Source: Desulfobacteraceae bacterium Eth-SRB1
GTDB lineage: Bacteria > Desulfobacterota > Desulfobacteria > Desulfobacterales > ETH-SRB1
Assembly (NCBI GenBank): GCA_004193555.1
Contig: RPGP01000001.1
Span: forward strand, 462,156 to 526,155
DNA length: 64,000 nucleotides
Direction: 5' to 3'
Position 1 is the stretch's first letter, and each line of letters begins with the position of its first letter. This document shows positions 3,383-52,272 of the stretch, one piece after another. The notes below the pieces were generated by a model that ran no database searches, had not been told where the DNA came from, and saw nothing but the letters and a program-made list of their open reading frames with translations. Position numbers and translations under genes: made by a program.

Positions 3383-6300
3383 GGCTGAAGCGTCTCGATC
3401 TGAAGGCCTTTGGTCCTTTCACTGACCAGACCCTGGAGTTTAACTCCGAGGAGCCTGGCTTCCACATAATTTTCGGGCCAAACGAGGCAGGGAAAAGCAG
3501 TTCACTCCGGGCGCTCAAGGCCCTGCTGTATGGGTTCTCTCAACAGACGCCTGATAATTTCATTCATAATTATGATCAACTACTTGTCGGTGGCTGTCTT
3601 GAAAATAGCGCTGGAGAAGAAATTATCTTTCAGCGTCGAAAAAAGCGTATTGGCGATATTATTGATGAGGCGGGTAATCCCCTTGATTTGGGTGCCTTAG
3701 CTCCATTTCTCCACGGCGTTGAACCGGAAATCTTTGAATCCCTCTACGGCATTGATCATGACAGTTTGGTACGAGGTGGTAAAGAAATTCTTGCCCAGAA
3801 AGGCGAGGTGGGCCAAGCTCTGTTTGCCGCCGGCGCAGGCATTTCCTCACTGCGGGAGGTCATTGATCAGCTTGAAAAAGAGGCAGCAGACCTGTTCAAA
3901 TCGGCAGGACATCTGCCTGAGATCAACAAGGCTGTCAAAAGATTCAAAGAACTGCAAAAAGAGGTCAAGGCGCTCAGCCTTTCTTCCAGGGAATGGAAAG
4001 AGCATCAGAAAGCTCTGAAAAATGCTGTGGCAAAACGGGAAGCTTTAGAAAAAGAACGAGACCATAAGAATAAAGAGTTGCATCGTTTGGAGCGGCTGGA
4101 GCAAGCCATTCCTGAGCTGGCTTCTTTGAAATCCTGGCAGGACCAGATGCCGGCCTTGGAAAAGGTTATTCCTCTGCCCCCGGATTTTGCCGAAAGGCGC
4201 CGGCAGGTTAGCCAGGAAATGCGCGAGGCAGGGCAGCAACTGCAGAGAGATACTGACCGTCAGGTAAAACTTGAAGAGAAGCGCAAGGCCATCTCGTTCA
4301 ATAAGGATCTCCTGAACCATGCAGAGAGGGTGGATGATTTTCATCAGCGTCTTGGTGAATACCGCAAGGGACAGAAGGACAGGCCGGAAAGAAATGGTAT
4401 GCGGATCAGCCTCCGTAGAGACGCTGCCAGCTTGCTGCAGCAGGTGCGGCCGGATTTGCCTTTGGAAGCGGTGGAGACTCTGCGGCCTGTGCTTGCCAGG
4501 AAAAGAACTGTGCAGACATTAAGCTCCAAATATGAGGCAATAAACCAGCAGCTTACGCTGGCACAGAAGCAGGGCAAGGCAGCAGAGCAGGAGCGTGAGG
4601 AGGTAAAGAAAGGCCTAACTGCAATACCGGAGGCCAGGGAACCTCAGAACCTTTTCCAGGCCGTGAAGCTGGCACAAAAGGCTGGGGATGTTGATGCGCA
4701 TCTGGAAAAGAGCAGGAATGAGGTTGAACTGAACAAAAAAGAATGCTTTGTAGCACTCAAGCGGATTGGCCTCTGGTCTGGTGATTTGGCAGCACTCGTG
4801 GAACTCTCTTTGCCGCTTTCTGAAACTGTGCAGCAGTTTGAGACTAATTACAGCGAGATTGCTGATAAAAGGCGTGAGATCGAAAAGGATCGTAAAAATG
4901 ATGAAAAGGATCTGAAGAACGCTCTGGCTGAGATCAAAAAGGTGGAATATGCGGGTAAAGTTCCTTCAGAGGAGGAGTTGGCCCGGACCCGTGAAAAACG
5001 GGAGCAGGGTTGGCAGCTTTTGCGGCGGCAGTGGCTTGATCAGGAGGATGTGACCGAAGAAAGTCAGCTCTATGATCCTGAACAGCCGCTTTCTGAGGCC
5101 TATGAGGGATATGTGTGGCAGGCGGATCTTATTGCCGACCGGTTGCGCCGGGAGGCAGACAGGGTAGCCAATACAGCGGCCCTTCGTGCCCGAGTAGAGA
5201 CCCTGCAAGAGACCCTGGCAGAGAATGTCACTGACAAAGAAACGCTTGATCTGCGAACACAAGAATTTGATCTATCCTGGCGCCGAGTGTGGCAGCCTGC
5301 TGAAATCACCCCGTTATCCCCAAAGGAAATGAACGGCTGGCTAATTGAGATGGATAAACTGCGCTTCAAGGTAAATGACATCTTTAAAAAGGAACAGGAA
5401 ATCGGGCTCGATGTGAAGCGAAGAAAAGATCTTAAGCAGGCCATACAAAAAGAGCTTAATTCCATGGGTGAGGAGGAAGCGCCTGCCGGTGAAGAGCTCG
5501 GTCCTGTTCTGATTTTAGCAGAGACTGTCCTGGAGAGAATTGCCGGCCGGAAGATGGATCTTGAAAAATTAAAAGAGACGCAGGAAAAAGCGGAAAAGGT
5601 TTTTCATCAGGCAGAGGAAGATCTTAAAGCTGCGCAGGAGGCCCTGGCCAAGTGGCAGGAGCAGTGGCGAAAGACGCTTTTTGGTTTGGGACTTAAGGAC
5701 GAGGTCTCTACTCTTGAAGCCATTGACCTTATTGAAACCCTGCAGAGCTGCTTTGACAAGTTGAAAGAGGCGGATGATCTTAAAAAGCGCATTGACGGCA
5801 TTGACCGTGATGCGGCTGAGCTTGAGAAGGAGGTTAATGCCCTGCTTGAGAAGGTGGCCCCTGACATGTTGGCCTTGCCTCTGGACCAGGCAATTTTGCA
5901 ATTGCGGACCATGCTCAGCGAGGCACAAAAAGACGGCGCCCTGTATGACAAACTTTCTGAGGACTTAGACTCGCTGCAGGAGGATGTCTTTGCTGCCAAA
6001 AAAACTTTGCAAACTGCAAATGAACAGATGGATGAACTCCTTCGGATAGCCGGATGTGAAAAGTCTGAAGAGTTGGCGGCGGTAATCGGCAAGTTTACGG
6101 AATATCAGAGGCTGCAGGAGAAAATTTCTGATACTGAGGCAGTTCTGGCCAAAATCGGGGCTGGTGTACGGATTGAAGAGCTTGATAGACAGGCGGCAGA
6201 GGTTAATGCCGATGAATTGCCCAGCCTGATAGAGTCGCTGAAGAGAAATATTAAAGAAAATATAAATCCTGAAATCAATAGAATTTCTCAGGTGATCGGT

Positions 6301-40592: not shown

Positions 40593-40680
40593 TTTTATCC
40601 TGCAAACGGCCTTCTATATCAGGGATCAGGGGCCAAGGGATTGGGGCAAGGAATAGTGAACAGGGGATCGGAGGGCAGGA
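40593..40680. repeat. Copy of nadB 3' end plus GATCAGGGG repeat
   Basis: The 23 bases at 40593-40615 (from TTTTATCCTGCAAACGG to CCTTCT) are identical to 50618-50640, which holds the stop and last codons of nadB. They are followed by AGGGATCAGGGGCCAAGG, related to 38690-38755. Confidence 0.75.
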
Positions 40681-40718: not shown

Positions 40719-43352
40719 TTAATCCAGATCCGAAACTTTCACAACCTGCCTGTATGCAACATCTTCAAACTCATCAAAATGCGCTTTGCCGCATTTGATT
40801 TTTCTTTTCTCGCTTTCTTTCAGTTCCTGATTTTCAGATTTGGTTTCTGCTACAAAATAAACAGTTTTTTCATTTTTCTTTATAAGCGCCCAATCAGGAG
40901 TATAGTTTCCTATAGGAGTTTTTATTTTAAACCAGAACGGGAGCTTGAAATAGAATTGAACATCCTCACGTGTTTCGCACTCTTTTGCAAACCGATATTC
41001 AACGTGTGAGTCAAGCGGCACCATGTTGCTGAATATCGTTTTTTCTTTTTGAGAAATATAAAATGTCATGTCGTTAACATGAATTTCATAATCCTCAAAA
41101 AGCCGCATTTCATATTCAACATTCCCGATTTTTTCATACTTGATACCGTCAATTATAAGTTCATTTAAGGCTTCTTTTATTTTTACAACCGCACTATCAA
41201 GAAATAACTGGGGATTGATAAGAACATCATCAAGCCTGCCTGATTCGATAAGTATCTGCAGGATGGTTGAGCGGGTTAAACCTGTTCGGCTTTGAATATA
41301 TGCCGGCACGTCAGGAATTTGAAAAGTCTTGTCCCTGATAGTTGAATAGCTTGCAACAACATCGCTGACAATGCCGCCCTCATCAAATTTTACAGATGAT
41401 TTTGTGGATTTAATAACCGCTTTTTTTATTTCAGGCATGTTTCTGATTGCTCTTGCCGCTTTATTAACAAGCGCGCCTGTCTCATAAATGACCTTGTATT
41501 TTGTGTGGTGTTTTATTTTATCCCAGAGTTTTTTGAAATTCTCATCAAGTTCAAACCCCTTGCGGTATTTTACCTTTTTTCTTTTCTTCCTGTTTTTTAT
41601 TCTGCCCTTGAATGAGACTCCGCACTCATTTTCTATTTCATTTTGAAGCTGTTTTGCAAAGTCTTCATAACTTTCATTTGCAATAACAGTCAGTTTGTTG
41701 ATCACGGGATTCTGAATTCTCAGACCGGATCGGTCAACCGCAAGCCGCATTCCCCTTCCTATTTCCTGCCTCTTTTTTAAATCAGACCGGGTTTCATTTA
41801 ATGTGCAGATCTGAAAAACATTCGGGTTGTCCCAGCCTTCACGCAAAGCGGAATGGCTGAATATAAACCTTAACGGCTCATCAGCGCTAAGCAGCCGTTC
41901 CTTATCCTTCATTATCAGTTTAAAAATATCAATATCAGCCCTGGATTTTGCCGCTTTTTGAGTATCCTTGAATTTACCTTTTTTATCCTGTGAAAAATAT
42001 CCATTATGAACATCGTCAACAGAAAAAGGTATCAGCCCCTTGTATGCCGATTTAGAACTGATTGCCTTGAATGATTCTTTAAACCATTTTGCAAATTTTC
42101 CATGCACCAGGTTTCCGTTCTCATCATACTTCCGGTAGTTGGCAACCCTGTCTATAAAGAACAGGGAAAGGACTTTAATCCCTTTATCCTTATATTTCTT
42201 TTCCTTGATAAAGTGCTCCTTAACGGTTTTTTCTATCTGGAACTTTATTACTTCATCAGTCATACCGCCCTGTGAATCGCCAACAAAAAGATCCTCGCCA
42301 TTTGACATGGAAATAAATTCCGATTCCACATCTATCCCGTTTATAATGTAACCCTGTTTGTAAATTTCCCTGCTTTTGGAGAGTTTATAAAGGTCATCCC
42401 CGACTTTTGCGGCAATGGTTTTTCTTTTCACACCATCATTTGTATTTACATCAATGGAAAGTCTGGCAGATGTTCGTGTTTTTGTGGCAGATACTTTTTC
42501 AAGCCTGACAAAAGCGTCATTAAAATCGTTTTCAGTTATAATGGAGTCCACTTCAATCTGTTTAACCAGTCCAAGGTCGTATGCTTTTACAGGGTCAAGG
42601 CTGTAAATAAGATTATACTGATTGATGTGAGTTGCGGAATAGCGAAGAGTGCAGGAGTAATTCAGGTTTTCAATGGCCTTTTTTCTGATCCCGGTTTCCA
42701 TGTTCTGGGGCTCATCAACAATTACAACCGGTTTTGTGCTTTGAATGAACTCAATCGGCTTTTTGCCTGTAAGTTTGTCATTGGTCCTGTTGATAACATT
42801 TTCATCCTTTGCAAATGAATCAATATTTATAACCAAAATCTGGATTGCATTATTTGAGGCAAATCCCCTGAGACTGGAAATTTTTCCGGAATCATACACG
42901 TCATAATTTACAGGGCTTCTGTCATAAAGATTCTGAAAATGATCAAAGGTAATTTCAAGATTTTTTAAAACACCTTCGCGGATGGCCACACTCGGAACAA
43001 CTATAACAAATTTCTTAAAACCGTACTTTTTATTCAGCTCATATATTGTTCTGATATAAACATAAGTCTTTCCGGTGCCGGTCTCCATCTCAACGGAAAA
43101 ATGCATTCCATCAAGTTTTTCGGAAATATTGTTGAGCCCGTTTTTTTTCTGAATTTTTTGCAGGTTGCTTAAAATCCGCTCTCTGGAAATATCAATTTGG
43201 TTGCCGACTCCATTTTCATTAAAAAGCTGACCGTTTTCATAAGTCGAAAAACCAAAATTCCCCTGGCTCAAAGGCTGGCCTTCAAAAATATCTACTATGG
43301 ATTTTACAGCATCAAGCTGGTACTGCTGATTGGGATCAAAATGGAGTTTCAA
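40719..43352 (-). CDS. res: Type III restriction enzyme Res subunit (helicase-endonuclease)
   Basis: 877 residues. Helicase motif I is METGTGKTYVYIR (Walker A at 91-96), motif II is VIVDEPQNME, motif III is LRYSATH, and motif VI is RRQEIGRGMRLAVD-like (QEIGRGMRL). The C-terminal nuclease shows PDWALIKKNEKTVYFVAETKS, a PD...E-T-K signature. Res translocates along DNA and cuts in complex with Mod. It is the last gene of the operon mod-N6 methylase-small nuclease-like-res. Compared with EcoP15I Res, length and order are normal. Confidence 0.92.
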   Translation of the reverse strand: MKLHFDPNQQYQLDAVKSIVDIFEGQPLSQGNFGFSTYENGQLFNENGVGNQIDISRERILSNLQKIQKKNGLNNISEKLDGMHFSVEMETGTGKTYVYIRTIYELNKKYGFKKFVIVVPSVAIREGVLKNLEITFDHFQNLYDRSPVNYDVYDSGKISSLRGFASNNAIQILVINIDSFAKDENVINRTNDKLTGKKPIEFIQSTKPVVIVDEPQNMETGIRKKAIENLNYSCTLRYSATHINQYNLIYSLDPVKAYDLGLVKQIEVDSIITENDFNDAFVRLEKVSATKTRTSARLSIDVNTNDGVKRKTIAAKVGDDLYKLSKSREIYKQGYIINGIDVESEFISMSNGEDLFVGDSQGGMTDEVIKFQIEKTVKEHFIKEKKYKDKGIKVLSLFFIDRVANYRKYDENGNLVHGKFAKWFKESFKAISSKSAYKGLIPFSVDDVHNGYFSQDKKGKFKDTQKAAKSRADIDIFKLIMKDKERLLSADEPLRFIFSHSALREGWDNPNVFQICTLNETRSDLKKRQEIGRGMRLAVDRSGLRIQNPVINKLTVIANESYEDFAKQLQNEIENECGVSFKGRIKNRKKRKKVKYRKGFELDENFKKLWDKIKHHTKYKVIYETGALVNKAARAIRNMPEIKKAVIKSTKSSVKFDEGGIVSDVVASYSTIRDKTFQIPDVPAYIQSRTGLTRSTILQILIESGRLDDVLINPQLFLDSAVVKIKEALNELIIDGIKYEKIGNVEYEMRLFEDYEIHVNDMTFYISQKEKTIFSNMVPLDSHVEYRFAKECETREDVQFYFKLPFWFKIKTPIGNYTPDWALIKKNEKTVYFVAETKSENQELKESEKRKIKCGKAHFDEFEDVAYRQVVKVSDLD

Positions 43353-43397
43353 TTGATTATTCTCTATCGTTGATTAATATTTCAAATTCGGATTTGG

Positions 43398-44075
43398 TTA
43401 TGATTTCTCAATATTTACAGAAAAATCAAACATTAAATGATACAATTTAATTTTTCTATTTTTAATGTCTTTATGAATCGAGTAGTATTGATATTTAAAA
43501 TCTTTAACAAAATTGTGGGAAGTCAGAACAGTTTCAGTGTTTGTATCAGAGAAGTTTTTCCTCAACAATTTGTTAATATTTGTGATGTTGGCGGGAATAT
43601 CCATTTGCTCAACGACAAAGCCAAACATGCCGTTTAAATATTTATTTGTTGAATACTGACCACTAACAAAACGCATAATACCATTCTTGATATATTCAGC
43701 ATTAAGCCCTGTTGTTCCATTAAGGTTTTGATTATCTAATCGTTTGCATTCAATTATATAATAAGCTGAAGTGTCTGTAAGACTATTTCCGCTGAAAATT
43801 TTTAGATCAATAAAACCTGAACATTTATCGTTTCTATATTCAGCCGGTTCACAATCTATATTACAGTTGAGACCAACTTGGCCACGCACTTCATTATTAT
43901 TCAAATAGTTATTGTATAAAACATCTCTTATTTCCACTTCTTTATTCGGGACGATATCGCCATTGTCTATCATCATCTTATAACAACACACTATTTTTGT
44001 AAGGATGATTTCAAATTCTGCGATGTAAAAATCTGTTGATCCAGGGAAAGCAGAGGAATCAAGTTGATTAGCCAT
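43398..44075 (-). CDS. Putative PD-(D/E)XK-like accessory protein of the RM operon
   Basis: 225 residues, not assigned to a family by sight. GFIDLKIFSGNS ... AYYIIECKRLDN resembles the D...ExK signature of restriction-endonuclease folds. Aromatic and Asn-rich flanks follow. It overlaps the methylase gene by 8 bases and lies 45 bases before res, so it belongs to the same operon. It could be a nuclease, or an accessory/specificity factor for the N6 methylase. I see no close known homologue by memory. Confidence 0.55.
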   Translation of the reverse strand: MANQLDSSAFPGSTDFYIAEFEIILTKIVCCYKMMIDNGDIVPNKEVEIRDVLYNNYLNNNEVRGQVGLNCNIDCEPAEYRNDKCSGFIDLKIFSGNSLTDTSAYYIIECKRLDNQNLNGTTGLNAEYIKNGIMRFVSGQYSTNKYLNGMFGFVVEQMDIPANITNINKLLRKNFSDTNTETVLTSHNFVKDFKYQYYSIHKDIKNRKIKLYHLMFDFSVNIEKS

Positions 44076-47000
44076 TTTGCTCCTCCTTGCCGCCTGCTCT
44101 CAACATTGCATCCACAAATGCCTCTGAATCAAGATATGCTATTGCTTTATGCCATGTTTTTTTCTCATTCGGTTTGACTATATAAAAACCCTCCTTTTCA
44201 AAACCACGGATATCCTTTTGGATAAAAAGGGATTCTGTAATTTTCTGATATCCAAGAGATGATAGTTTTATTAGTAAGTTGTCATCAGATGTTTGTTCCC
44301 ATGAGATTGGCTTTTTATTATTCGATTTATTGCTAACTCTGAAAAACATTCCTATTATGTAATTACTATGTAATATTTGAAGGGTAAACTTTTTGTCGCT
44401 TCTTTCAAAGGAATTTCGAAAGCGGTTTAAAAATACCTCGGCATAGTTCGTTAAGAAAGGATCTTCTATCTTTAAAGGCTGGAACAACTCTTTTTCATAT
44501 CCTTTATGTTTCATTATTAAGGGGATTGTAATATTCACCGCATAATCCACAAGAACCCTCTCCTGTTCATCCAGTCCAAAACTGTTTAATATTTCAGCAT
44601 TCAAATCTTCTATGAGTTTTTTCTTTTCATCTTCCAGTGGCTGGGTGGAAGGTAACAGTTTTTGTTTTTTGTTGAACAGCTTTTTGCTGATTGATTCTAT
44701 TTTCTCCACATGTTGCGCTATGGCAGGGTTATTTATGTATGGGAAGTTGAATTTTTCCTTATCGTTTACTTGCTGTTCTATCATGATCCCAACAGTAGAA
44801 CTTTTTATAAGTATAAAATATGAAAATAAAGATGAATACAGTAAACCGGCAATCTCATAATAAATGCTCAAATCTTTATTTCCAGTGGCTTTAATAGAGG
44901 TAATTTTATCTGTAAATAATATCTTATTTTTTAAAGAAATTGCAGAAATAGATTTTAATTCTGTGTTCACTGTTTCTTTTAACAGTAAAACCGGGGGGGT
45001 AAATACCGTTTTTGCGATCTTTTTTTCTTCTACGGTCTTTCCTTTTTCTACGATCTTTTCTTTTTCACGGTAAATATATCCTACGTATTTATCTATCCAT
45101 TTCTCAAGCTTTGGGTAAATGAAAAATGGTTCAATTTGCTTTTTTTTACTTATATCTAAAAAATCCCAACCTATTAATTCTTCAACATTTATTTTTTTCT
45201 TTCCATCTTTTCTTTTTAATCCTTGTTTAACTAAAAAATTGTTTTTATTGTATATAATATCGCTTATTGTTTTATAATTTTCTTCCAATCGTCTAATAAG
45301 ATCAAAATCCATGTAACTTCCATAAACCAATGTTTTCCATAACCAGTCGTATTCCATCAAACGAGATTGAACAACCTGTTTACAATCATTTCTTTGAAGC
45401 ATAAAGACTTTAAACAAAGAAAAAAATCGGTTTGGTTTTAATGCAATATGTTCAATAACATTTTTGTCGGTATCCTCACCTTGCGCATAACGGAAAAACA
45501 AAATGGCGGCAGGAGCGATTGACGGATCATTTGACTTGTCAAATACTTCCCTGCGGACAGCAGCCAATTCCAATACTTTATCAATAAAATAATTATGTAA
45601 AAAATATCTTCTAAATTTATTGGCGTTGAGATTATATAAAGTCTTACTGGTAACAATCAGGGCGCATTTGGTTTGTGCAGTACTGAAATCGCTCGTTCGC
45701 AGCAAGAAGGCCTGCGCTATTTCCTTATTACTGATAGTTGGCATTGGCTCACCATCAGCTTTGCTCGCTTCTTTTTTCTTTCTTTCTTTAATATACTTAA
45801 GGAATAAAGCGTTTTTATCGCTTCCGCGTTTCCATGGGGGATTGCCGAGAATAAAATCAAAATTAATCTTACTAAAGAGTGAATTATATTCTGCCTTTTC
45901 CGGCTTTGTTTCAAAAAAATCATTGGTGAAAAAATTCCTATTGACAAGTTTTGGAAATTTAAAATTTTCTATATTCTTGGGGTCTCTAATATAGTCAAGC
46001 AAAGCAAGATAAACCGAGAATATGGCAACATTTATTGCATTGCCATCCTGATCGACTCCGTAAATATTTTCTTCCGCTATCTTTTTCAATACTTCTTTTT
46101 TTGTGGAAGTTATTCCGTTAATTTCCTGATAACGTTCTATCATTCTTCTTAATGCCTGGACCAGAAAAATACCTGACCCGCACGCTGGATCGAGTACCTT
46201 GCAGTTATGTTCGTTTTTATTTGTTTCAAAATATTCCTCTACAGTCTCTTTTATTATATAATCGACAAGAAATACAGGAGTATAATATGCTCCCTTTTTA
46301 GCCTGGTTTTCCTCTCCTATAAAGTCTTCATATACATTGCTGATAAACTCAACCGGAATTATTGAAAAATCATAAATATCAAATAAAGACCTTTGGTCGG
46401 TTGTAATTTCTGTTCCCCGTATAAGCCGGCTTAAAATATTGAATGCTTCATTGGGAATATCTTGTAACTCCGTGTTTTCTAAAAGAAAAGCTTCTCCGTT
46501 AAAGTGGTCTTTCAGGTAATTCAAAAATTGAATAGTTCGGTCTTTATCTTCTAAAAGTTTACAGAATTCATCATTCGTCCATGCCCGCAGTGTGCCATCA
46601 AATTTGATTCTAACATGACGATCTATCAGGTAACGGATAAATATACATTTTCCAATAAGGGCATTGGCCAGAGGACTATCAATATTATTGTATTCTCTAA
46701 TGAGTAAATTTCTTGCGGCTCTTATATTTTCCAGCAACTTGTAATCAACTCGATTTTGATATTTAAGTTTATTTCCATAAGTCTGCCAGGTCTTGCCTGT
46801 TACCAGTTCAAAATAAGAAAAAGCATTGAGATTGCTTTTGTCTCCCAGTTTTGCGAGGGTCTTTTCTTTTTCCAGATAGGAAAGTCCGTTGAAGATATTG
46901 ACGGTATTTGGTTCGTTAATAATTACAACAGGAGATTCATTAAAGTTCCAGATATCCTTGAACAGTTTTTCTTTATTTTGCGGAGAATCATAAAACAGCA

Positions 47001-47169
47001 CTATTGGCTTATTATCAATACAGAAAAAAGCTTCCGGCTCCAGCTTGTCGTCAAGCCGCCTTTCTATCCGCGCAGGCAGCACGCCTTTCCATTTATTTTC
47101 GGCAGTAATATACAGACCGTCTCGATCCTTTATATGAAGATGGTCAAATATTTCTTCTAAATTTTTCAT
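44068..47169 (-). CDS. N6-adenine DNA methylase (gamma-class, Eco57I-like) inserted in the type III operon
   Basis: 1033 residues. The S-adenosylmethionine motif is VLDPACGSGIFLVQALRR near residue 325, the catalytic motif is FILGNPPWKRG near 441, and KGAYYTPVFLVDYIIKETVE precedes motif I, as in N6-adenine methylases with a TaqI/Eco57I-like arrangement. The N-terminal 300 residues are not a clear nuclease. The C-terminal half (about 560-1000) is likely target recognition. The start at 47169 follows the mod stop by 2 bases, and the end overlaps the next gene by 8. Such a large methylase inside a mod-res operon is not part of the ordinary type III plan. Confidence 0.82.
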   Translation of the reverse strand: MKNLEEIFDHLHIKDRDGLYITAENKWKGVLPARIERRLDDKLEPEAFFCIDNKPIVLFYDSPQNKEKLFKDIWNFNESPVVIINEPNTVNIFNGLSYLEKEKTLAKLGDKSNLNAFSYFELVTGKTWQTYGNKLKYQNRVDYKLLENIRAARNLLIREYNNIDSPLANALIGKCIFIRYLIDRHVRIKFDGTLRAWTNDEFCKLLEDKDRTIQFLNYLKDHFNGEAFLLENTELQDIPNEAFNILSRLIRGTEITTDQRSLFDIYDFSIIPVEFISNVYEDFIGEENQAKKGAYYTPVFLVDYIIKETVEEYFETNKNEHNCKVLDPACGSGIFLVQALRRMIERYQEINGITSTKKEVLKKIAEENIYGVDQDGNAINVAIFSVYLALLDYIRDPKNIENFKFPKLVNRNFFTNDFFETKPEKAEYNSLFSKINFDFILGNPPWKRGSDKNALFLKYIKERKKKEASKADGEPMPTISNKEIAQAFLLRTSDFSTAQTKCALIVTSKTLYNLNANKFRRYFLHNYFIDKVLELAAVRREVFDKSNDPSIAPAAILFFRYAQGEDTDKNVIEHIALKPNRFFSLFKVFMLQRNDCKQVVQSRLMEYDWLWKTLVYGSYMDFDLIRRLEENYKTISDIIYNKNNFLVKQGLKRKDGKKKINVEELIGWDFLDISKKKQIEPFFIYPKLEKWIDKYVGYIYREKEKIVEKGKTVEEKKIAKTVFTPPVLLLKETVNTELKSISAISLKNKILFTDKITSIKATGNKDLSIYYEIAGLLYSSLFSYFILIKSSTVGIMIEQQVNDKEKFNFPYINNPAIAQHVEKIESISKKLFNKKQKLLPSTQPLEDEKKKLIEDLNAEILNSFGLDEQERVLVDYAVNITIPLIMKHKGYEKELFQPLKIEDPFLTNYAEVFLNRFRNSFERSDKKFTLQILHSNYIIGMFFRVSNKSNNKKPISWEQTSDDNLLIKLSSLGYQKITESLFIQKDIRGFEKEGFYIVKPNEKKTWHKAIAYLDSEAFVDAMLRAGGKEEQNG

Positions 47170-47171
47170 GT

Positions 47172-49046
47172 TTACACCACCTTAAATTCAATGCCGGCAT
47201 CCTTCATTTGCAGCAAAGTATTTGTTTTTAACTGGTCATTGTTTTTAAAGAGTCTGTCAAGGGTGATAAACACCTGCGGTTTGTCTTCAAGTATAGAATC
47301 CACTATCTTTTCATCAATCCTGGAAAGCGCAATAATCATTTCACCGTCATTTATCCTGTAATAATCATTGGCGTTTTCAATTTTTGAATTGAGGTTACGG
47401 CCTGACTTGAGCAACAATTCAAACAGCATGTTTTCTTCTGTTGCATCTTTCTTTATTGAATCAAGATGAATTTGCATCTGTTTTTCAAGCTGCCTGCCGT
47501 CTTTTATATTGTCTCCACGCCAGATTTTGAAATTTGAGGCTTGAAGTTTGAATACCTTGAACCCCAAATCCTGTTTTGTTTTTTCAAAAGGGAGTTTTCC
47601 GTTTTCGCTTTCTTTTATCTTTTTTATAACGCGTCGGATGCGTTCCTTGCCGATGTCGGCAATGGTTTTGTAGTCTGCTTTATAGGCTTCGGATTTTTCA
47701 TCGCATTTTTCGGGAAGTTGTGCACAGATGAATTTTCGGGCGCCGTTGTCTTGTTTGTTGAGGTCGAAAACAGCGTGGGCGGTTGTGCAGGAGCCAGGAA
47801 AAAAATCGAGAATAATGCCGGTTTTATCGTTAATTCCAATATTTATTAAGAAATTTATAAATGCCGTTGGTTTTGGGAATGAAAAAATTTGTGCATTACC
47901 AAATAAATCAATTATTTCATTTGTTCCATGTTGTGTATATACATCATCAACGATAGAAAATGCTTTGTCTTTTCTTATTTCGCCATTTTCGTTTTTCAAA
48001 TATTGCTTTGTATGAACTGTCCATTTTCCATCTTTACCCTTAATAAATTCAAGTCCTCCACTCTTGAGTGCTTTTTGAGTCCTCTCTTTACCCCATAACC
48101 ACTGCCTTCTAGGCATAACTTCAGTCCCATCTGGTGCAGGAATTGGATAAACAAGATTTTTTCTTTCCCCCATGCTTTTAGTTGCCTCTAATGGATGGGT
48201 TCTGTATGCGCCTCTTAAACCATAATTTTTATCTTTTAATTTATAGTATCTCTCAATCGACTTTTGAGGCAAAGGCATGAAAATCTCAGGCAATTTAGCA
48301 AGGTTTTTTGCATAAACCAAGGCATATTCATGTAGCGAAACTAAAAACTTTTCTTTAGCACCACCACCGTACCGCTTCTTCCAAATGATACAGTCTATAA
48401 AATTTTCCTCCCCAAAAACCTCATTCATCAACAATCTTAAATTATGAACCTCATTATCATCAATACTTACAAAAATCACCCCGTCATCTTTCAACAGGTT
48501 CCTTGCTAAAAACAGCCTTGGATACATCATGGAAAGCCAGTTGGAATGATAATGACCGCTGTCCCTGCTGTTTTTCCGAAACAACCCCTCACGAGTCATA
48601 TAGCCTGCTTCATCTTTGTCGCCGATGCGTCCTAAATACTCTTCTTTTGTTTCAGAGAACCTGTCAGGATAGATAAAATTGTCGTTGCCTGTATTATAAG
48701 GCGGATCTATATAGATCATTTTTATCTTGCCAAAATATGACCTTTGAAGCGCTTTCAAAACCTCAAGATTTTCGCCTTCAATGAAAACATTTCCCGTGTT
48801 ATCAAAATCAATTGATTCATTTCTGTCAGGAGCAAGTGTCGCAGTTGTCGGTGCCTGCAATACTTTGAATGCATCGGACTTTCCGGCCCAGTTCAGAACA
48901 TAACGCTCGTTTTTGAATTCAATATCCTCGCCAAGTGTTGCTTTCAGCTTTTCCCAGTCAATTATGCCTTCAGTAAAAGCTTCAGGCATTACTTCTTTGA
49001 GCTTTTCAATCTTATCCTGTTTGATATCCAGCGATTTGCCATCCAT
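47172..49046 (-). CDS. mod: Type III restriction-modification methyltransferase Mod
   Basis: 624 residues, beta-class N6-adenine methylase order. Catalytic DPPYNTGNDNF (residues 114-124) comes first, and motif I comes later as ILDFFPGSCTTAHAVFDL (the usual GSGTT is GSCTT). GVIFVSIDDNEVHNL is also typical of Mod. The region between (about 250-400) would carry the target recognition domain. It is the first gene of the operon with res last. The start has an AAGGAAATCATA site. An inverted repeat lies just upstream. Confidence 0.92.
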   Translation of the reverse strand: MDGKSLDIKQDKIEKLKEVMPEAFTEGIIDWEKLKATLGEDIEFKNERYVLNWAGKSDAFKVLQAPTTATLAPDRNESIDFDNTGNVFIEGENLEVLKALQRSYFGKIKMIYIDPPYNTGNDNFIYPDRFSETKEEYLGRIGDKDEAGYMTREGLFRKNSRDSGHYHSNWLSMMYPRLFLARNLLKDDGVIFVSIDDNEVHNLRLLMNEVFGEENFIDCIIWKKRYGGGAKEKFLVSLHEYALVYAKNLAKLPEIFMPLPQKSIERYYKLKDKNYGLRGAYRTHPLEATKSMGERKNLVYPIPAPDGTEVMPRRQWLWGKERTQKALKSGGLEFIKGKDGKWTVHTKQYLKNENGEIRKDKAFSIVDDVYTQHGTNEIIDLFGNAQIFSFPKPTAFINFLINIGINDKTGIILDFFPGSCTTAHAVFDLNKQDNGARKFICAQLPEKCDEKSEAYKADYKTIADIGKERIRRVIKKIKESENGKLPFEKTKQDLGFKVFKLQASNFKIWRGDNIKDGRQLEKQMQIHLDSIKKDATEENMLFELLLKSGRNLNSKIENANDYYRINDGEMIIALSRIDEKIVDSILEDKPQVFITLDRLFKNNDQLKTNTLLQMKDAGIEFKVV

Positions 49047-49376: not shown

Positions 49377-49700
49377 CTACTGCCACTCCCTTCCATTTTT
49401 CCTTTTATAGAAAACTTTCCCAACCCGTTTAATATGATCGATCAAATCAGGAGCGGTAATATGGTGGTATATGGAAAGGTCGAAGGTATAAGGCAAGAGT
49501 AAATCATCAAGATCAAGGCTGATCTTGTTTAGCAGTTTCAAGTTCAGTTGTTTGCCTTTTAATGTCAGATCAACATCAGAGCCGGGTTTATAGTTGCCTT
49601 TAGCGCGGGAACCATAGAGGGTGGCTTCCTCTACTTCTTTGTATTTGATAAATATGGTGTTTATCTTTTTTACAGTTTCTTTTTTTAACCCGTATTGCAC
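49377..49700 (-). CDS. MNT-type nucleotidyltransferase antitoxin
   Basis: 107 residues from a GTG at 49700. TLYGSRAKGNYKPGSDVDLT is the nucleotidyltransferase signature G-S-x10-D-x-D that marks MNT antitoxins. An upstream in-frame ATG at 49796 would give a longer product, but that stretch overlaps the HEPN gene, whose stop is at 49709, so the GTG start is chosen. MNT proteins neutralise HEPN RNase toxins by adding nucleotides. The pair sits next to the restriction operon in a defence setting. Confidence 0.8.
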   Translation of the reverse strand: MQYGLKKETVKKINTIFIKYKEVEEATLYGSRAKGNYKPGSDVDLTLKGKQLNLKLLNKISLDLDDLLLPYTFDLSIYHHITAPDLIDHIKRVGKVFYKRKNGREWQ

Positions 49701-49708
49701 ATTATGCC

Positions 49709-50131
49709 TTATTGATCTGAAGTTGAGCGCAGGCTTTCCAGTTTTGCTTCCAACTGTTTTAGAAGCGAATAATATACTTTTACCACTGCCTGACATATTT
49801 CTCTCGCTGTTTCTTCATTATAGGTATGCGAAGTTTTATTCCTGCTTTTAAGCATATCCATCCAGTTTTCGCCGTCGTCTATCAAACCTAACTCAAAAGC
49901 TTTACGTATAGCGTCTCTTGAACCGTAAATGTCTGTTTGCCCTTTATACTCAAGAAAGTCTTTTATGGTGTTCCAGGCAAGTTCATAAGTGTATTCAAAA
50001 GCCTTAATAAGCCCTTGCTCTTCAAGCTCCGACAATTCACCTTTATCAATAAATTTTTGCAGCCGTGCCAAAGCTTTCCGGTAATTTGCAAAGCGTTGCT
50101 CCCAACGAATATCTTTATTTACAGTTGCCAT
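49709..50131 (-). CDS. HEPN-family toxin, HI0074-like
   Basis: 140 residues, mostly helical. SRNKTSHTYNEETA contains the HEPN R-x4-H RNase motif, and the upstream region LAWNTIKDFLEYKGQTDIYG matches HI0074-type nucleotidyltransferase-binding partners. It lies 8 bases before the MNT gene, giving the usual toxin-antitoxin order. As a predicted ribonuclease its activity is unproven here. The region before the start (50132-50160) has no other gene. Confidence 0.85.
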   Translation of the reverse strand: MATVNKDIRWEQRFANYRKALARLQKFIDKGELSELEEQGLIKAFEYTYELAWNTIKDFLEYKGQTDIYGSRDAIRKAFELGLIDDGENWMDMLKSRNKTSHTYNEETAREICQAVVKVYYSLLKQLEAKLESLRSTSDQ

Positions 50132-50160: not shown

Positions 50161-50476
50161 GACTATATAACTCAAGTTTCGCACCCCTAATTTCTATCAA
50201 TGTCAAGACGGTAAGGGTTAAAAATAACATTTTTACAGCGGAATCATTTGGTTATATTTTGTAAATAGCACCCTGTGCGACATACATTACGATCAGGCGC
50301 AAAGGAGATATAACATATTGAATTTAAAAAGGTATCAAGCGTCAATCTTATACTTAATTGATTGGCGCCGTTGTTAAAAGCACAAATAGTATGTTTCGCT
50401 TTAAAATTTATTTTTAGCCCTTACCGTCTAACGCTTCGGATAGATTAAAGGGTGCGAAACTTGAGGATATAAGTAG
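50161..50476. mobile_element. MITE-like element with about 65-base inverted ends
   Basis: The left end (50161-50227) and the complement of the right end (50409-50476) share CTCAAGTTTCGCACCC (16 of 16) and AGACGGTAAGGG followed by TAAAAATAA, with moderate divergence between. The central 180 bases have no gene. The outer end AAGTAGTTAC resembles GTAACTACTCAAG at 56131. It looks like a small non-autonomous element, but no target duplication was confirmed. It accounts for most of the 50132-50619 gap. Confidence 0.6.
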
Positions 50477-50619
50477 TTACAAATCAGCAATATAACATCA
50501 ATTGCCGGCCTTGAACGACCGATTGCCAGAGACTTTCTGACCTCAACCTTCCAAATCTTCGTGTGCTTCGTGGTAAAAAGTGGCCAGCCCCTGATCCCCA
50601 ACCCCCGATCCCTGCTCTT

Positions 50620-52272
50620 TTATCCTGCAAACGGCCTTCTGATAAGAGTATCTTTTTGCCATCGCTTATCGTCCCTAACAGGATATTCAATGTTGTAGTG
50701 GAGCCCTCGGCTTTCCTTTCTGTGCATGGCACACTTTATAATCAGCTCCGCTACTGTAGCGATATTCCGAAGCTCTATAAGGTCCGGCGAGACCTTGAAA
50801 TTCCAGTAGTACTCCCTGATTTCGTTCTGAATGTTTTCAATCCTGCGTTTTGCCCTTTCCAGCCGTTTGTTTGATCTGACGATTCCGACGTAATTCCACA
50901 TAAACCTGCGGATTTCATCCCAGTTATGTGAAACCATGATAGCCTCATCGCTGTCGGTCGCGCCGACCTCGTCCCATAAAGGAAGAGCCGGCAAGGATTT
51001 TATGCCAGGTTGGCTGATTTCTTTCACAGCCTGCTTAGCAGCCTTGTGAGCATAAACAAGGGCTTCGATAAGAGAATTGCTTGCAAGTCTATTGGCTCCG
51101 TGAAGTCCGGTGCAGGCCGTTTCCCCAACGACATACAATCCGTTAATATCTGTTTTGCCGGTCATATCTGTCGCAACCCCGCCGCACATGTAATGGGCTG
51201 CAGGGACAACAGGAACAGGTTCTTTGGTCATGTCAATGCCAAAGGCAAGACATTTTTGGCATAGATTGGGAAAACGGTTTTTGACGAATTCAGGTTTTTT
51301 ATGAGATATATCAAGAAACACCGAGTCATCCCCGCTTTTTTTAAGTTCTGTATCGATTGCCCGGGCAACAACATCCCGGCATGCCAGATCCTTTTGCGGA
51401 TCATATTTTCCCATAAAAGGGTTTCCGGCCGAGTCTATGAGAATTCCTCCATCGCCCCTTACCGCTTCTGAAATCAGGAAGTTTTTTGCGTCGGGATGAT
51501 AGAGACAGGTTGGATGGAATTGAACAAATTCAAGGTTGGCCACAGTGGCGCCGGCCCTGTATCCCATTGCAATTCCATCTCCTGTTGCCACATCAGGATT
51601 GCTTGTGTAAAGATATACCTTGCCCGTGCCCCCGGTTGCCAAAAGTGTGACAGGGGCGCAAAAGGTTTTTACACTCTTTGTCTGCGTATCAAGAACATAG
51701 GCTCCACAACAATAATCTTCATGGGTTGTAGTGACAAGCCCTCTTTTCATACGGGTAGAACGGACAATAAGATCGATTGCAACATGATTTTCAAACAGGG
51801 TAATACGTTCATTATTTTTTACATGCTTTACAAGAACGGTTTCGATTTCTATCCCGGTCATATCCTGGGCATGCACAATCCGTTTTCGCGAGTGCCCTCC
51901 CTCACGCCCCATATCAAAGTCAGGGTCAAAAGCCTGTGACTTTTCTTTTGAACGCTCTTTTTCCTTTACATTAAAATGAGCGCCAAAACTTATCAGTTCG
52001 CGAATCCTGTCCGGACCGTTTTTAACCACCATTTCCACAACTTCCCTGTTGCAGAGACCGTCACCGGAAGCAAGAGTATCCTGTATATGAAGATCAAATG
52101 AGTCGAGTTTGCCAAAAACCGAAGCAATGCCGCCCTGTGCAAGGGCGGTATTTGTGTCCATTAGTCCTTTTTTTGTAACAAGGGCAACACTGCCGAACTC
52201 TGCCACCTTAATAGCAAAAGTAAGACCCGCCACACCGCTGCCGATTATCAAAAAATCTGTTTTAATTTCCAT
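50620..52272 (-). CDS. nadB: L-aspartate oxidase NadB
   Basis: 550 residues. FAD site DFLIIGSGVAGLTFAIKVAE, active-site region TALAQGGIASVF, LASGDGLCNREVVEMVV, LEFVQFHPTCLYHP, EAVRGDGGILID and GRNAL-like LHGANRLASNSLIEALVY are all NadB features. The enzyme oxidises L-aspartate to iminoaspartate for NAD synthesis, using fumarate or oxygen as acceptor, and fumarate is likely in an anaerobe. nadA and nadC are not in the window. The last residues (RRPFAG) and the stop are shared at DNA level with 40593-40615, so the C-terminus may be repeat-derived. The preceding repeat ends at about 50613. Confidence 0.93.
   Translation of the reverse strand: MEIKTDFLIIGSGVAGLTFAIKVAEFGSVALVTKKGLMDTNTALAQGGIASVFGKLDSFDLHIQDTLASGDGLCNREVVEMVVKNGPDRIRELISFGAHFNVKEKERSKEKSQAFDPDFDMGREGGHSRKRIVHAQDMTGIEIETVLVKHVKNNERITLFENHVAIDLIVRSTRMKRGLVTTTHEDYCCGAYVLDTQTKSVKTFCAPVTLLATGGTGKVYLYTSNPDVATGDGIAMGYRAGATVANLEFVQFHPTCLYHPDAKNFLISEAVRGDGGILIDSAGNPFMGKYDPQKDLACRDVVARAIDTELKKSGDDSVFLDISHKKPEFVKNRFPNLCQKCLAFGIDMTKEPVPVVPAAHYMCGGVATDMTGKTDINGLYVVGETACTGLHGANRLASNSLIEALVYAHKAAKQAVKEISQPGIKSLPALPLWDEVGATDSDEAIMVSHNWDEIRRFMWNYVGIVRSNKRLERAKRRIENIQNEIREYYWNFKVSPDLIELRNIATVAELIIKCAMHRKESRGLHYNIEYPVRDDKRWQKDTLIRRPFAG

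Follow-up and report, generated by a model that had tools for sequence, protein, structure and literature searches.

Within a window of 64,000 nucleotides from Desulfobacteraceae bacterium Eth-SRB1 (contig RPGP01000001.1, positions 462,156 to 526,155), the modification gene (mod) and the restriction gene (res) of a type III restriction-modification (RM) operon are separated by two further genes, one for an N6-adenine methylase (MT) and one for a small nuclease-like protein (NUC). We consider it likely that MT and NUC form a second, self-contained RM system that has been loaded between mod and res. All four open reading frames (ORFs) are open on the minus strand, beginning with mod (47172-49046, 624 residues) and continuing through MT (44068-47169, 1033 residues) and NUC (43398-44075, 225 residues) to res (40719-43352, 877 residues); mod and MT are 2 bases apart, MT and NUC overlap by 8 bases and NUC and res are 45 bases apart. 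An initial annotation, made from the letters alone, had reported these genes, and its coordinates, strand and spacing were confirmed from the ORFs. It had also placed the two methylases in the beta (Mod) and gamma (MT) classes, which fits the motif order of the translations (DPPY before DFFPGSC in Mod, DPACGSG before NPPW in MT), an order that we take to distinguish the two classes. The 3819 bases from the mod stop to the res start (43353-47171, minus strand) are referred to below as the slot, at whose borders DNA homology breaks in relatives.

Judged from their translations, mod and res are a type III pair of the ordinary kind. Mod matches PADLOC PDLC03634 (641 bits) and Pfam N6_N4_Mtase (PF01555), and Res matches PADLOC PDLC03647 (976 bits), ResIII (PF04851) and RE_endonuc (PF19778), giving the beta-class methylase and the helicase with C-terminal endonuclease domain by which type III genes are recognized. 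The TTG start of res matches the start of most homologues (MKL/LKL-like starts). The genome is methylase rich, with 14 N6_N4_Mtase matches, 12 of them over the cut-off and some perhaps pieces of one gene. It also holds a second type III mod-res pair of another subfamily (C1, ~278.5-283.1 kb; L118 6521-11147) with a 30-base gap and no cargo, followed by an 86-residue relic of a C-terminus like that of the window Res (73% identical).

MT matches the PADLOC model PDLC03603 'REase_MTase_IIG' over residues 1-1026 with 904.6 bits, along with the Pfam families PF07669 (Eco57I) and PF02384 (N6_Mtase), and the inner pair thus has the Eco57I-like gamma-class methylase domain of type IIG RM enzymes. The polar or charged columns kept in at least 87% of 23 MTs are N75, D142, D183, N224, Q259, D327, N443, D621, E870, and D1014. 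No ExK pair is found among the columns conserved at this level, N-terminus included, and for this reason NUC rather than MT most likely supplies the nuclease, despite the type IIG label that PADLOC gives MT; a divergent nuclease may also lie inside the MT chain. Searches with MT gave no match to phage records at E≤1e-10, and phmmer against solved structures returned only one weak methylase match. The BREX methylase PglX was considered as an identity for MT and rejected on NCBIfam scores far under the curated cut-offs (48.5 of 400 bits for BREX-2, and 47.4 of 900, 40.8 of 500, and 36.5 of 900 bits).

Scans of Pfam, NCBIfam, PADLOC, and PHROGs placed NUC in no family. The D...ExK-like residues that had drawn attention to the 225-residue protein proved invariant in 9/9 aligned relatives, in which E46, G87, D90, E109, C110, and K111 are all unchanged; D90, E109, and K111, and not E46, are invariant also in a set of eight sequences. 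We take the set E46/D90/E109-x-K111 to be the classical PD-(D/E)XK signature. An AlphaFold model built from nine sequences (pLDDT 79, pTM 0.83), used after a single-sequence fold with a pLDDT of 32 had been set aside, places E109 and K111 on a strand (105-112), D90 just before another (91-94), and E46 at the opening of a helix (46-58). VIA re-ranking put BamHI first (Z 6.0, 145 aligned residues, 4.4 Å), followed by McrBC, Bax1, SfsA, and Cdn1, which are all, we presume, PD-(D/E)XK proteins. Ecl18kI, PspGI, EcoRV, PaqCI, and EndoMS occur in lower rows and Can2 also among the weak matches, and the list is mixed with unrelated NF90-NF45, gephyrin, cGAS, and OAS chains at Z 2.8-4.7. Because the leading rows agree, though each match is weak, NUC is predicted from the model to have a PD-(D/E)XK-like fold and to be a free-standing endonuclease. 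Sequence comparison of NUC with solved structures (phmmer) gave nothing useful, the best match being an elongation factor at E 0.088. By eye, ORFs with PD...E-K-like stretches were also seen after two more distant MTs (L017 4206-4643 and L016 4-354), perhaps unrelated nucleases with the same role.

MT lies directly upstream of NUC on the same strand in 28 of 29 NUC loci, with overlapping stop-to-stop frames in 27, and is present in 20 of the 21 loci found by NUC searches; the other eight of the 29 came from MT searches, and there the linkage is not independent, as possession of NUC was the reason for retaining the viral loci and L132. In 24 of the 28 pairs, including those on plasmids and viral contigs, the flanking DNA examined holds no match above 60 bits to the Mod and Res of the window, a screen that would miss distant type III systems and that covered short flanks on at least one side in L018, L020, L026, L028, L124, L126, L132, and L134. 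Three of the remaining four pairs are embedded between mod and res (the window, L018 and L019) and one (L130) adjoins a type III pair. The inner pair is regarded as a separate unit because it so often stands without a Mod or Res match. Against plasmids, tblastn with NUC found five records; in the four examined, the fifth being a second Agrobacterium plasmid, NUC immediately follows the gene for an N-6 DNA methylase, and neither mod nor res appears in the annotation around it; in L003 another Eco57I-type methylase gene and a helicase gene lie further on. NUC was found in 7/58 relatives of the window's genome (own included), in 9/296 Bacteroidota genomes, and on five viral contigs among the 80 MT loci kept. 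Scans of viral contigs with single proteins recovered no contigs other than those of the query itself.

A scan of the genome collection with MT gave three close relatives; the MT relatives stand at 74, 57, and 51% identity. In a metagenome-assembled genome of Candidatus Delongbacteria (L018), mod, cut at its 5' end, is followed by MT, NUC, and the first 70 residues of res, after which the contig ends; a Res fragment of 533 residues on another contig of that genome is 70% identical to the window Res. Identities of this locus to the window are 57% for Mod, 57% for MT, 53% for NUC, and 60 and 70% for the Res pieces. In Desulfobacteraceae Eth-SRB2 (L019), MT (74%) and NUC (62%) are intact, of mod, which has lost its middle, a short start piece and the final ~94 codons (89%) remain, and res can be matched for only ~54 residues (87%). 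Eth-SRB2 is a case in which the outer system was lost while the inner one was kept. The third relative, from Bacteroidales (L020), has MT followed by NUC with the upstream side cut, and its genome holds no Res match at E≤1e-20. The MTs of the window, L019 and L018 form one clade in the tree (support 100/99), and the embedding of MT and NUC may have happened once and then spread between phyla. Downstream of the broken operon of Eth-SRB2 (L019 12984-20850) we noticed by eye another multi-gene cluster, with one large ATPase-like ORF and one methylase-like ORF.

Related type III operons also carry genes between mod and res. Res relatives (E≤1e-150) occur in 9/395 genomes of the window's phylum (own included) and in 33/395 Bacteroidota genomes. 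We compared 28 mod-res loci, comprising all eight from the window's phylum other than the window itself and 20 of the 34 Bacteroidota matches, and counted 26 after leaving out L181 and L185, where res stands at a contig start and mod is not visible. The gap contains at least one same-strand ORF of 80 residues or more in 24 of the 26; the unfilled gaps are those of L146 (23 bases) and L150 (780 bases, with a 280-residue ORF on the opposite strand only). Among the 42 cargo ORFs, 30 were scanned against Pfam, nine of them without a match at E≤0.001, and 20 against PADLOC, the rest being placed by blastp to these. Defence models are matched in 21 of the 24 filled loci (weakly in L183), either by a cargo ORF itself or by one of its relatives elsewhere in the cargo set; no such match was found in L189, L190, and L192, the first two of which were outside the PADLOC scan. 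Since related systems carry other defence-type genes there, the mod-res gap looks like a loading slot for defences.

The cargo is diverse. Three loci (L143, L145, and L187) carry an ATPase with weak Ppl/PHP matches and a Schlafen-AlbA protein, and L144 carries another RM-like set of GHKL ATPase, 5-cytosine methylase, and Vsr. HEC-01A/B is found in L182 and L194, GmrSD/HEC-06 in L186, DUF488 with PDC-M19B in L184, and a PD-Lambda-4A-like gene with Abi_2/AbiD in L193. PDC-M59A accompanies a Fic-like gene in L195, L198, and L199, and its first 130 residues precede a SoFic-like gene in L196. A single ORF of 150 residues in L197 (4847-5296) joins the first 100 residues of PDC-M59A to the last 54 of the Fic-like neighbour, as judged against L195 and L198, which suggests cargo decaying in place. 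DUF1016/PDC-S02 fills the slot of L200, with a fragment in L148, and other slots hold PDC-S13 with BRO-N (L147), BRO-N (L189), a PDC-S05 fragment (L149), PDC-M64 with a helix-turn-helix gene (L191), an AAA ATPase (NsnB/HEC-like) with a gene without family (L188), a distant Schlafen-like protein with a ParA-type ATPase (L183), an IS200-like transposase (L190), and a gene without family (L192). The sample includes near-copies of the surrounding mod-res shell (L195-L198, Res 94-96% identical; L143-L145, 92%), and some genes are frame-broken or cut, namely mod in L144, L147, L184, and L191 and res in L144, L147, and L150.

Different cargo is found beside near-identical Res in four pairs of loci, L144/L145 (92.5%), L148/L149 (93.2%), L187/L188 (86.9%), and L196/L198 (96.1%). 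In the first three of these, DNA homology stops 61, 2, and 3 bases past the mod stop, respectively, and resumes within 26 bases of the res start; in L196/L198 the first ~390 bases of the slot, over the PDC-M59A start common to both, are still homologous, and after a break homology returns at the res start. The slot of L144 holds a second copy of 43 bases of the mod 3' end (137-179, 91%), and in that of L193, just after the first cargo gene, the first 67 bases of res are repeated (3827-3893 from the mod stop, 90%). Other shell-end matches in the 28 slots scanned are only 15 and 16 bases long. The extra copies in L144 and L193 give the impression that recombination at the shell ends brought cargo in.

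We propose that MT would recognize and methylate adenine in a target of its own and that NUC, as a separate nuclease chain, would cut unmethylated DNA, probably docking on MT as its specificity subunit in a 'split type IIG' design. That the four genes share one strand and lie close together suggests a single transcript with the order M-M-R-R (mod, MT, NUC, res). With this gene order, both protective methylases would precede both nucleases when the island that carries the operon (described below) enters a new cell. Judging from the homology breaks, cargo would be exchanged through recombination in two conserved stretches, the 3' end of mod and the 5' end of res. A broader reading, for and against which we see the case as evenly balanced, is that the mod-res gap is a true cassette slot with borders fixed at the mod stop and res start. 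Cassettes (RM, GmrSD-like, AbiD-like, Fic, AAA/Schlafen-like, and others) would be swapped through the mod 3' and res 5' flanks between shells with near-identical Res, could be stacked, would decay in place, and would come second in the order of expression, with the modification gene ahead of them and the restriction gene behind. The RM-in-RM arrangement of the window would then be the most layered case, its M-M-R-R order giving joint control of establishment.

Several observations weigh against a self-contained pair in a dedicated slot. The embedded cases number only three, one of them degenerate, and belong to one clade, and co-selection of all four genes as one system is possible. One NUC locus (L113) has a partial NUC-like frame of 109 residues without MT. 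In a genome of the window's own family (L130 4736-13319) the order is res-mod-MT-NUC, a second type of association with type III genes. Slot occupancy is not exclusive to the window's lineage, as three of six gaps are filled in a different type III family, a small control from which L224 (mod not visible) was left out and in which G118 (partial res) was not included; filled gaps are commoner in the window's lineage (25/27, window included, versus 3/6; Fisher p 0.031, ignoring relatedness). The Mods of the four pairs of loci with swapped cargo are less alike than their Res (82% over 250 residues, 66%, 63%, and 93%, in the order given above). The G+C content of the window's slot is 0.330 versus 0.379 in the mod/res shell, and the slot lies below the shell in only 19 of 28 loci (window included) and above it in nine. 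As to NUC, all structure matches are weak, with a best Z of 6.0, and Foldseek with the model gave no match at E≤0.001, its top rows being unrelated folds.

It is possible, if unlikely, that the four genes make up one integrated system and work only together, MT adding a second mark or NUC serving Mod and Res as an accessory nuclease. The mod-MT-NUC-res order in Delongbacteria with its relic in Eth-SRB2, the 2-base gap and 8-base overlap, the single supported clade, and the pair beside type III genes in L130, even in another order, would all be consistent with such a system. Yet 24 of the 28 pairs stand without a Mod or Res match in the DNA examined, in Eth-SRB2 the pair outlasted the breakdown of both outer genes, and relatives hold unrelated cargo in the same slot. 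The last two points also speak against the new accessory layer, with double-marking protection, that the initial annotation had entertained beside the idea of two fused systems. From that idea we retain the two systems, the pair being found alone in most loci and the middle of mod/res varying, in the form of one inserted inside the other.

We think it improbable that NUC serves as a toxin, a regulator, or a modification-dependent nuclease, with methylated DNA as its substrate or a failure of MT as its trigger. The lack of a family assignment and the presence of the ancillary nucleases Can2 and Cdn1 among the weak structure matches would allow this, but its position directly behind the methylase in 28 of 29 loci and the full E..D..ExK set fit an RM endonuclease best. 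A chance insertion peculiar to the window's genome can be given hardly any weight. The initial annotation had reasoned that the insertion would be fortuitous if the order were never conserved elsewhere and the middle genes had close homologues in unrelated contexts. The middle pair does have homologues in unrelated contexts, but the order is conserved in Delongbacteria, a relic of it persists in Eth-SRB2 and the slot is used recurrently, and the explanation as stated is refuted. A second, self-contained RM system inside a type III operon is thus the reading that we prefer.

The embedding of one defence in another is already on record for other hosts. According to the available excerpt of PMC12255303, a type I RM system carries DarTG2 between its hsdS and hsdR genes, and Septu lies inside Hma. 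As in the hsd and Hma cases, MT and NUC lie between host-defence genes and are also found alone elsewhere, and the DarTG2 case resembles the window in placing a self-contained defence ahead of a restriction-subunit gene; it differs in its type I host and toxin-antitoxin cargo. The excerpts of PMC12255303 and PMC12988326 cite a preprint on 'guilt-by-embedding' (Payne et al. 2024), and the latter traces the PDC and HEC candidates to this approach. The likeness lies in defence genes between host-defence genes, with slot cargo matching PADLOC HEC-01, HEC-06, PDC-M19, M59, M64, S02, S05, and S13; the difference, as far as those excerpts describe the approach, lies in the type III host and in a cargo consisting of an RM-like pair whose nuclease has no PADLOC model. 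Because much of the slot cargo matches HEC or PDC models, the mod-res slot may be partly implicit in the work of Payne et al. Going by this partial record, embedding has been published for type I RM and Hma, and the type III mod-res host would be the new part.

The window shares with type III systems of the EcoP1I/EcoP15I kind a mod and a res with the expected domains, and differs from them in the 3.8 kb with a further RM-like pair that lies between the two. In type III systems Mod and Res act as one complex, which with ATP cleaves DNA at two unmethylated sites of inverse orientation. The portion of PMC12707154 available gives EcoP15 two genes, and a type III restriction operon of three ORFs is recorded in that of PMC4943601. 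With type IIG enzymes (Eco57I and MmeI) the window has in common an MT that matches PDLC03603 almost end to end and contains the Eco57I methylase domain; in contrast to them it has a separate nuclease-like gene after MT and no conserved ExK in the MT N-terminus. In the literature searched we found no account of a cargo slot between mod and res, of a second RM system within a type III one or of a split type IIG pair, a weak negative given that most subscription papers and preprints were outside the search.

MT and NUC appear to represent a compact two-gene RM-like family whose nuclease matches no model in the four libraries scanned, and the mod-res gap is a place to look for further defence genes. 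Shells with up to 96% identical Res and different cargo are natural experiments on the swapping of defence cassettes, and the nested RM pair makes it possible to ask directly whether two RM systems that share an operon become established, and are lost, as one.

The operon lies on an island of ~10 kb flanked by a perfect 23-base direct repeat, with its left copy at 40593-40615 and its right copy at 50618-50640 (both plus strand), 10,025 bases apart from start to start. A 21-base core of the repeat occurs twice in the whole genome. The right copy covers the last codons and stop of an L-aspartate-oxidase-like gene (50620-52272, minus strand; FAD_binding_2/Succ_DH_flav_C). In the sister genus g3, 7/7 genomes have the arrangement expected of an empty site, in which the L-aspartate-oxidase-like gene and the gene for the M48 peptidase, which lies left of the island, are neighbours placed end to end, their matches separated by ~350 bases or fewer; this adjacency was not seen within the DNA examined at the other 12 of 19 loci. 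In the congener G001 the M48 gene is followed by a res gene 91.6% identical to that of the window, inside which the contig ends, and NUC was not found in this genome. No integrase was recognized by eye among island ORFs of at least 80 residues. A putative toxin-antitoxin pair, likewise on the island and on the minus strand, consists of a nucleotidyltransferase of the Polbeta/MNT type (49377-49796; PF18765, PF01909) and a nucleotidyltransferase substrate-binding/HepT-like partner (49709-50131; PF08780, with PF01934 just under the cut-off). At its right end is an element of ~295 bases resembling a miniature inverted-repeat transposable element, bounded by a 16-base perfect inverted repeat (50171-50186 and 50450-50465) with an inner 27-base inverted repeat.

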